Source of the DNA: an uncultured Pseudomonadales bacterium | GTDB taxonomy: Bacteria; Pseudomonadota; Gammaproteobacteria; Pseudomonadales; UBA7434 | NCBI GenBank assembly: GCA_905480475.1 | Contig: CAJQQO010000007.1 | Coordinates: 1-39,847 of the forward strand | Reading direction: 5' to 3' | Length of the DNA stretch: 39,847 bases | Shown here: positions 28,441 to 31,432 of the stretch, piece by piece | How positions within the stretch are numbered: position 1 is the first letter of the stretch | How the letters are laid out: the number at the start of each line of letters is the position of its first letter | Made by a program: the position numbers and the translations under genes | Notes under the pieces: model-generated | Seen by the model: only the letters and a program-made list of their open reading frames with translations | Told to the model about the DNA's origin: nothing | Database searches by the model: none

Positions 28441-28866
28441 ATGGCACTTAAGTTTAAAAATTTTCGACGATTGGGTTCGGATTTTAAATCTACGCCGGTG
28501 CCTGAAGAATTTATTCGCAAGCAAAATAATCTTTACGTTATTGAATTTGTGCAATTCCTGTTGGCTCTGTTCTTTATCGGTAATCAACTTTACGCACAAT
28601 TCAACGAGCTGAATACTGATTTTTATCATTGGGGGTTAGGTCTGGCTTTTTTATTTTCGATGATTAGCTGTACCGTTGAAAGTAAATATTATCGTACCGT
28701 TGTGGCGGCTGCATTTTTAAGTTGTCTGCTGATAGGAATACAGCAGTCTTGGCATAGCTATATTCTGTATGCCGTAACGGCCGGTGTCATTGTAGTGTTC
28801 TACTTCTTATATTTACACTCAGCTAATGAAAAGTATTTTTTGTGGTTAAAATCAATATCGCAATAA
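28441..28866 (+). CDS. Small integral membrane protein of unknown function
   Basis: This 141-residue protein has a basic N-terminus (ALKFKNFRRLGSDFK) and about four hydrophobic segments, near 32-50, 63-77, 86-99 and 106-125. No motif is recognised. It follows the second GntR gene by 66 bases on the same strand and precedes a GNAT gene by about 50 bases, so it could share either transcript. Coding is supported by length and amino-acid composition. The start has no clear ribosome-binding site. Confidence 0.6.
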   Translation: MALKFKNFRRLGSDFKSTPVPEEFIRKQNNLYVIEFVQFLLALFFIGNQLYAQFNELNTDFYHWGLGLAFLFSMISCTVESKYYRTVVAAAFLSCLLIGIQQSWHSYILYAVTAGVIVVFYFLYLHSANEKYFLWLKSISQ

Positions 28867-29452: not shown

Positions 29453-30415
29453 CTATTCTGGATTGATGGGATTTATCAAAGGTTTCCACCACTGCTTACT
29501 AGGTAGCTTATCCTTAATGTTTATTATTTCTCCCAGTATCGGTGTAAGTAAATTCTCCTGCTGTTCTTTTGCGGCTTTACTTAGCCGTTCAATCGGCTCA
29601 TACCAAGAGTGCAATCCTAAATCAAACATGCCCCAGTGTATCGGCACTAATAAATCACCGCGTAAATCCTGATGCGCTTGCACGGTTTGTTCTGGTGTTT
29701 GATGAATATAAGGCCAGCCATCATCATAGGCACCGTTTTCCAGAAAAGTTAAATCAAATGGACCAAGCTTATCGCCAATTTCTTTGTAATGGGGGCCGTA
29801 ACCTGAATCGCCACTAAAAAATACTCGCTGCGTTTTCCCGCTAATGCTCCATGACGCCCAAAGTGTTTTATTATTATCAATTAACCAACGGCCAGAAAAA
29901 TGCTGTGCCGGTGTTGCGGTTAGTGTTAGTCCATTAAGTTCGGTGCTCTCCCACCAGTCTAGCTCGGTAATTCTATCCGTTTTAACACCCCATGATTTTA
30001 AAAGTTTGCCAACGCCGAGAGGCACGATAAATTGTATATTACCTTTGGCTAGTTTCTTAATGGTTTTTTTATCCAGATGATCGTAATGATTGTGAGAGAT
30101 AAGCACTACATCAATATCGCTTATTTTATCCAGGGTGATAGCGGGTGGCTGAAAGCGCTTGATAGAAAAGGGTACTGGCGAGGCGTATTTGGAAAAAATC
30201 GGATCTAGCAGTATGCGAATGCCTTCGACTTCAAGAAATATCGTCGAGTGTCCTAGCCAAATAAACCGCAGTTCATTACTCTTGCTTGCCAACATTGATG
30301 GCGCTGTAGTAACTTCCGGAAGTTTTTGCGTGGGTCGACGATCATTTTTACTAAAAAAGAAATCGTAAATAATTTTTGGTGAGGTTTGCCTGCCAACAAC
30401 TTCAGGTGTTGGCAC
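29453..30415 (-). CDS. Metallo-beta-lactamase-fold hydrolase (UlaG/NAPE-PLD-like), start uncertain
   Basis: The frame from the first canonical start (GTG at 30415) gives 320 residues. Metal motifs are complete: SHNHYDHLD (HxHxDH), the later His in TPAQHFSGRW, FFSGDSGYG with its bridging Asp, and PIHWGMFDLG. WLGHSTIFLEVEGIRILLDP at about 53-72 is typical of the UlaG/NAPE-PLD-like branch. The GTG has no ribosome-binding site. The frame stays open upstream and encodes a convincing Sec signal peptide (NTYRAIVSLIVFIFCSSIHV, then SAKD) starting about 30568, but with no ATG, GTG or TTG. The mature enzyme is therefore probably periplasmic, made from a rare AUA/AUC start after AGGA at 30577-30580, or the gene has lost its start. 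Substrate unknown. Confidence 0.85.
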   Translation of the reverse strand: MPTPEVVGRQTSPKIIYDFFFSKNDRRPTQKLPEVTTAPSMLASKSNELRFIWLGHSTIFLEVEGIRILLDPIFSKYASPVPFSIKRFQPPAITLDKISDIDVVLISHNHYDHLDKKTIKKLAKGNIQFIVPLGVGKLLKSWGVKTDRITELDWWESTELNGLTLTATPAQHFSGRWLIDNNKTLWASWSISGKTQRVFFSGDSGYGPHYKEIGDKLGPFDLTFLENGAYDDGWPYIHQTPEQTVQAHQDLRGDLLVPIHWGMFDLGLHSWYEPIERLSKAAKEQQENLLTPILGEIINIKDKLPSKQWWKPLINPINPE

Positions 30416-30640
30416 AGTATTTTTAAAAATCTTATTTTCTTTATCGTATTGCGTTGAATTAGCTATACGCTGCGTTGTGGATGCCTGATCTAAATCTTTA
30501 GCGCTTACATGAATTGAAGAACAGAAAATGAAAACGATAAGACTAACAATAGCTCGGTAAGTGTTGATTATTATAATCCTATCGCTTTGTGTTTGCTTGC
30601 TAACTTTATGGCTATGGTAACCGCAGTTTGAAATATAAAT

Positions 30641-31432
30641 TTATTTTATTCGGCGTCGTTTGGAAAAATACAAGCCGGATAAAGCGCTAACAAACAATAA
30701 TAGCGCCGAAGGTATAGGTACTTGCGAGTTTTGTCCGGGTGTGCCTTCAATGCCGACAACATCGTAAATAAAATTATCATATCCCACGCCACTAATATCA
30801 TCGTTAACCAAGCTTAAGCCGGCGATATTAAATGCGCCGTCGTCATTGATAAAGCCAAATGAAAGTACCGCTGAGCCATCCAGTGCTAGCGTAAACTGAT
30901 TCAGTAAGGAGCCATCTCTTGCCCAAAACGATGCGATAACATTGCCACCAATACCTTCGCTATCGACGTCACTACCCAAGACATCAAAAGCGATTTGTGA
31001 TTGATCAAAATCGAAAAGTACTGCAACCGAGCCTTCGCCTAAACTCATCACCGAGCTCTCGCCTGACAATCCGCTATTGCCACCTAAGTTACCGGTGGTA
31101 AGGTTTTCGCCAGCAACGCCGTTCGATAAACTTAATTCATCGGTGGGTGTGCCGATAAGTGTATCTAAACCGCCGACCTCTACAACTGTTTGTCCTGCAA
31201 AGCGCTCGGAAAATGATGTTAGTCCGGATTCCAGTACGCCATCATAGCTTACCAGCTCGTCTGGCAATAACCCCAGATCTTCAAAGTCGACAATATTTGT
31301 CGCGGTTAAAGAGCTTGAAGCCACTTGAATAAGTGCTGCTTGGCTTGTGAGTGATAGCAGTAGTGTTGCAGTACCGATAATTGTTGATGTGGTAAGTTTA
31401 CTTAAAGAAGGTGAAGCGTTTGGGGTGCGCAT
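30641..31432 (-). CDS. Secreted protein with PEP-CTERM-like sorting signal
   Basis: This 263-residue protein has an N-terminal signal peptide (about 12-33: LTTSTIIGTATLLLSLTSQA). The middle is rich in Gly, Ser, Asp and Asn with beta-strand patterning. The C-terminus reads VPIPSALLLFVSALSGLYFS (238-257) followed by KRRRIK: a Pro motif, one hydrophobic helix and a basic tail. That tripartite end is a variant of the PEP-CTERM/VPxxP exosortase signal. The ATG is preceded by AAGGAA. No exosortase gene is in the window. It is probably exported and cleaved at the membrane for release or attachment to exopolysaccharide. The function of the middle part is unknown. Confidence 0.8.
   Translation of the reverse strand: MRTPNASPSLSKLTTSTIIGTATLLLSLTSQAALIQVASSSLTATNIVDFEDLGLLPDELVSYDGVLESGLTSFSERFAGQTVVEVGGLDTLIGTPTDELSLSNGVAGENLTTGNLGGNSGLSGESSVMSLGEGSVAVLFDFDQSQIAFDVLGSDVDSEGIGGNVIASFWARDGSLLNQFTLALDGSAVLSFGFINDDGAFNIAGLSLVNDDISGVGYDNFIYDVVGIEGTPGQNSQVPIPSALLLFVSALSGLYFSKRRRIK

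Follow-up and report, generated by a model that had tools for sequence, protein, structure and literature searches.

A putative AUC start codon for a presumably exported NAPE-PLD-like hydrolase of an uncultured Pseudomonadales bacterium

The window (the whole stretch of 39,847 nucleotides analysed here, i.e., a 39.8 kb contig of a 3.5 Mb assembly) carries on its minus strand a hydrolase frame whose conserved N-terminal part has no ATG, GTG, or TTG to begin from. We consider it fairly probable that the full-length, exported, NAPE-PLD-like enzyme is translated from a rare AUC at 30568, with AUA at 30571 as a second choice. The complete gene as proposed would occupy 29453..30568 on the minus strand (ATC start, 371 codons plus stop), a delimitation supported by the open frame, by N-terminal homology to four homologs (L135, L002, L031, and L111), and by a match to the Pfam family Lactamase_B_2. 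An AGGA located 8 nt upstream would place the 30S subunit at AUC 30568, where the initiator fMet-tRNA would pair with positions one and two of the codon, the third being mismatched, and methionine would be inserted with low efficiency; cleavage of the signal peptide after VSA would follow, and the enzyme would act outside the inner membrane.

Reading frame and N-terminus of the hydrolase

The window sequence is open on the minus strand from 30640 to 29453 (395 codons). The initial annotation had reported a frame devoid of ATG, GTG, and TTG from the stop at 30643 down to GTG 30415, as well as the lack of a ribosome-binding site before this GTG; both statements hold, as none of the three codons occurs among the in-frame codons from 30640 to 30418, and no Shine-Dalgarno (SD) sequence was found before GTG 30415, the first usual in-frame start. 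The corresponding shorter ORF (29453..30415, minus strand), present in the ORF list, is the expected call of a standard gene finder. There are 51 codons between ATC 30568 and GTG 30415, including IVSLIVFIFCSSIHVSA|KD, and they hold a predicted Sec signal peptide, (M)NTYRAIVSLIVFIFCSSIHVSA, with cleavage before KD (30500..30568, minus strand). By eye, the putative signal can be divided into (M)NTYR, AIVSLIVFIFCSSI, and HVSA|KD, as candidates for the charged n-region, the hydrophobic core, and the A-x-A-like cleavage site, respectively; the homologs have similar or lipoprotein segments at this place.

As judged from homology, the region above GTG 30415 is coding, in agreement with the initial annotation, which had assigned about 50 residues to it. 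The best homologs (L002 and L111, 54% identity each; L135, 52%; L031, 49%; over one alignment) all have an N-terminal signal or lipoprotein segment. When the relatives were checked for similarity to the upstream signal peptide, the lack of which had been named as an argument against the claim, these homologs were thus found to carry a matching N-terminus. In L002 and L135 the segment precedes the motif R-I-x-x-S-x-Q-Y-x(6)-F-x-N, of which L031 and L111 have less strict versions at this place; the version of the hydrolase of the window, RIANSTQYDKENKIFKN, is located upstream of 30415. As the homologs share the export segment and the motif, the true start should lie upstream of 30415. The distance from ATC 30568 to the RIxxSxQY motif is 33 codons, exactly as from the ATG of L135 to its own motif, an agreement to be taken as supporting since the length of the signal region varies across the hydrolase family. 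Taken alone, the extension has a weak coding-statistics signal: about 1 bit when counted from ATC, with 8.5 bits reached over the best 33 codons.

Translation from GTG 30415, which would give a shorter product without signal peptide, can be defended as using the sole usual start in the frame; however, this GTG, besides lacking an SD, sits within conserved coding sequence, and starting there would drop the conserved RIANSTQY...FKN stretch together with the export segment, which makes this reading very unlikely.

The identity of the protein is best defined by its fold and metal site. Residues 142-336 match Pfam Lactamase_B_2 (PF12706) with an E-value of 5.8e-48, and residues 108-358 align to human NAPE-PLD (PDB 4qn9; 250-residue alignment, E 9.6e-58). 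The motifs HNHYDH, TPAQH, GDSGY, and HWG are aligned with those of 4qn9, so that HxHxDH and the later His, Asp, and His ligands are all present, as in the NAPE-PLD/UlaG-like hydrolases; unlike human NAPE-PLD, the protein of the window is bacterial and has a putative Sec-type signal. Scores against the NCBIfam equivalogs PRK00685 and PRK11709 (UlaG) were far under their cut-offs, and we therefore describe the hydrolase, from these alignments, as a NAPE-PLD-like enzyme of the metallo-beta-lactamase fold, a claim limited to fold and metal site and not extending to the substrate.

Initiation codon and upstream gene

The start region reads GCGAT AGGA TTATA ATA ATC AAC ACT TAC CGA on the minus strand (assembled sequence: ATAATAATCAAC). 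The AGGA (30577..30580) had been placed five to eight bases before ATA and ATC by the initial annotation, and the sequence agrees: it precedes ATC (30566..30568) by 8 nt and ATA (30569..30571), which would make the protein one residue longer, by 5 nt. A further ATA is found in the leader at 30574. Within the same genome, the distance between AGGA and ATG (n = 77) was 7 nt in 20 cases, 8 nt in 6, 9 nt in 12, and 10 nt in 10, while a distance of 5 nt was found twice. The hydrolase gene thus has an AGGA at the usual spacing before an AUH codon, and the clustering of the spacings at 7-10 nt favours ATC 30568 over ATA 30571 as the better candidate. One has to keep in mind that this AGGA is an SD of only four bases.

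The leader ends upstream at TAA 30643-30641, the stop codon of a gene coding for a secreted protein without Pfam match (30641..31432, minus strand). As both genes are in one frame and the upstream one ends 72 nt before ATC 30568, stop readthrough or coupling of ribosomes from the upstream gene could be envisaged as the source of hydrolase synthesis; yet the upstream protein has an ordinary C-terminal anchor at its end (VPIPSALLLFVSALSGLYFSKRRRIK), which we take to be PEP-CTERM-like, the leader codons 30640-30580 are without homology, and the hydrolase has a separate SD. In addition, a congener (G003) has a homolog of the upstream gene (L138, 6381-7229; 68% DNA identity over 625 bp) with no hydrolase behind it. 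We thus regard readthrough or coupling as extremely unlikely.

Start-less genes and sequence accuracy in the assembly

We screened the window together with 110 further contigs, i.e., 1.0 Mb of the same 3.5 Mb assembly, for genes with a coding signal of at least 15 codons above their first usual start. It was confirmed that the start-less frame of the hydrolase exceeds chance: among about 760 five-prime-complete genes, five passed the screen, and three of them are explained otherwise, namely prfB by its known programmed frameshift, an FAD oxidoreductase (L202) by a single frameshift close to a contig end, and L231 as a decayed mobile-element, transposase-like gene. Besides the hydrolase, the screen returned a gene for an SDR-family oxidoreductase, a short-chain dehydrogenase (L139 on G000:C1, 4204 down to 3374, minus strand), which reads AGGA, 7 nt, ATT, and then KLTNNKTALVTGGG, with 130 codons before the first usual start; in the congeners, four homologs (identity of 64% and about 45%) all have ATG at the exact position of this putative ATT start.

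A second screen, directed at SD-backed ATH codons, returned lpxB (TIGR00215; L239 on G000:C99, 18518-19729, plus strand), a gene essential in most Gram-negatives. It reads GGAG, 6 nt, and ATC AGC ATA CAA, and the frame reaches the VAGETSGD motif without passing a usual start; its congeneric counterparts mostly start with ATG, two with TTG, and in the alignment the closest congeners have their ATG at the place of the ATA, two codons past the ATC. A looser screen of the same sequence gave no further convincing case of an ATH start. Among the candidates rejected, L211 (3693) has a real ATG downstream, in an overlap, and L152 is mraZ with a TTG start; L165, L187, L197, and L225 were discarded as well.

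Sequence error was the next explanation to be weighed, as a consensus error could hide a real usual start in the stretch or have removed a base from the leader. The assembly does contain errors, i.e., single frameshifts in infC (C330) and in the FAD oxidoreductase gene (L202); these known errors are, however, indels near contig ends, whereas the proposed start site lies 9 kb inside its contig. The leader (30640-30565) holds no ATG, GTG, or TTG in any forward frame, so that no usual start is available upstream to be connected by a single-base indel, and such a repair was rejected. As for substitutions, we searched the 1.0 Mb for stops that interrupt a frame showing coding signal both before and after them (87% sensitivity at internal gene positions). 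The 14 matches each had a usual start at most 10 codons past the stop and were, by eye, ordinary same-frame gene pairs; no convincing internal nonsense codon was thus left among 72,145 single-base targets, which bounds the substitution error rate below about 1.4e-4 per base (95%). Uniform random substitutions would place all three hits at detectable ATH starts with p of about 2e-6, a post hoc calculation that assumes equal rates but leaves a large margin. Given the lack of a convincing nonsense codon and the two other SD-backed ATH starts, an error of sequencing explains the hydrolase case poorly and is very unlikely; the ATH starts are probably genuine and seem to be tolerated by this genome, lpxB included.

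The infC gene (L229 on G000:C330) is itself cut at the contig end and has a one-base frameshift near position 150, probably an assembly error.

The main rival of an AUC start is a real but recent mutation of the start codon (ATG to ATC or ATA) that would have left the gene silent or nearly so, as an early pseudogene. Its relatives indeed begin with a usual codon: the nearest homologs, 49-56% identical, start with ATG (L135 and L031) or apparently GTG (L002 and L111), and the ATC codon is not conserved among them. The gene is also dispensable, being absent from 11 of 11 congeneric genomes, and a relative of another family keeps a mere decayed remnant, likewise without usual start. Against start loss, the 371 codons are free of stop or frameshift, all metal-site motifs are intact, and the same kind of change in lpxB points to a genome in which ATH starts are tolerated. 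The search for homologs covered 58 relatives, 392 genomes from the order, 369 from the class, and a GTDB r220 scan, and gave none above 56% identity. With no closer homolog, and none in the congeners, against which to compare the start codon, silent start loss, although somewhat unlikely in our view, stays the main rival. Of the three options offered by the initial annotation, the rare start has thus gained from the SD spacing and from the two other ATH starts, the start-codon mutation stands in the sense that relatives have ATG or GTG, and the sequence error has lost ground.

The remnant mentioned above (L026 of G014, about 1770 down to 1380, minus strand) belongs to the same hydrolase family and combines a lipoprotein signal with a frame break.

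Relation to known AUH starts

Translation from AUH codons is not without precedent, infC and pcnB of E. coli both starting with AUU. In S. aureus, AUH starts are described for infC, ccpN, citZ (AUA), and cvfC1 (AUU), and AUU/AUA sites yield about 10% of the AUG level, one of them up to 30% in rich medium (PMC13009471). According to PMC12350097, which cites an E. coli reporter study, AUA, AUU, and AUC all rank within the top seven initiators by strength. On the other hand, AUC starts have very rarely been documented, which counts against reading 30568 as one: among 61,358 ancestral AUG starts, one had switched to AUU and none to AUC or AUA (PMC5622118), a count of AUH switches that is lowered by annotation bias.

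The hydrolase start is best read, from its sequence context, as belonging to this known and rare AUH initiation, weak but real. As in the E. coli and S. aureus cases, an isoleucine codon would replace AUG, the SD is at normal spacing, and a lower yield is expected; in contrast to them, the codon would be AUC (or AUA), the SD has four bases, and the product would be an enzyme destined for export, not a regulator. It also differs from the conserved regulatory type represented by infC and ccpN, as the codon is not conserved in the homologs and the gene has no ortholog in the genus.

A broader possibility is that start-codon discrimination is relaxed in this lineage, with AUU, AUC, and AUA starting an appreciable number of genes (perhaps tens), essential ones included. 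We hold this to be rather unlikely; if true, standard gene finders would cut short or miss such genes. In the region above the first usual start, ATH codons backed by an SD are no more frequent (0.065) than TTH (0.066) or GTH (0.070), which gives no evidence of mass ATH use. An altered initiator tRNA was also considered and rejected, as the genome has the anticodon arm (CGGGCTCATAACCCG) in its ordinary, unaltered form. AUC starts are rarely on record and are passed over by gene finders, so that annotations lose signal peptides and whole N-termini; the three SD-backed putative ATH starts seen in one third of a single genome, with lpxB among the genes concerned, suggest that such starts may be commoner in uncultivated bacteria than currently estimated.

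Elsewhere in the window, a membrane-like ORF of 141 residues without Pfam match lies between a GntR/UTRA regulator and a GNAT acetyltransferase (28441-28866, plus strand).
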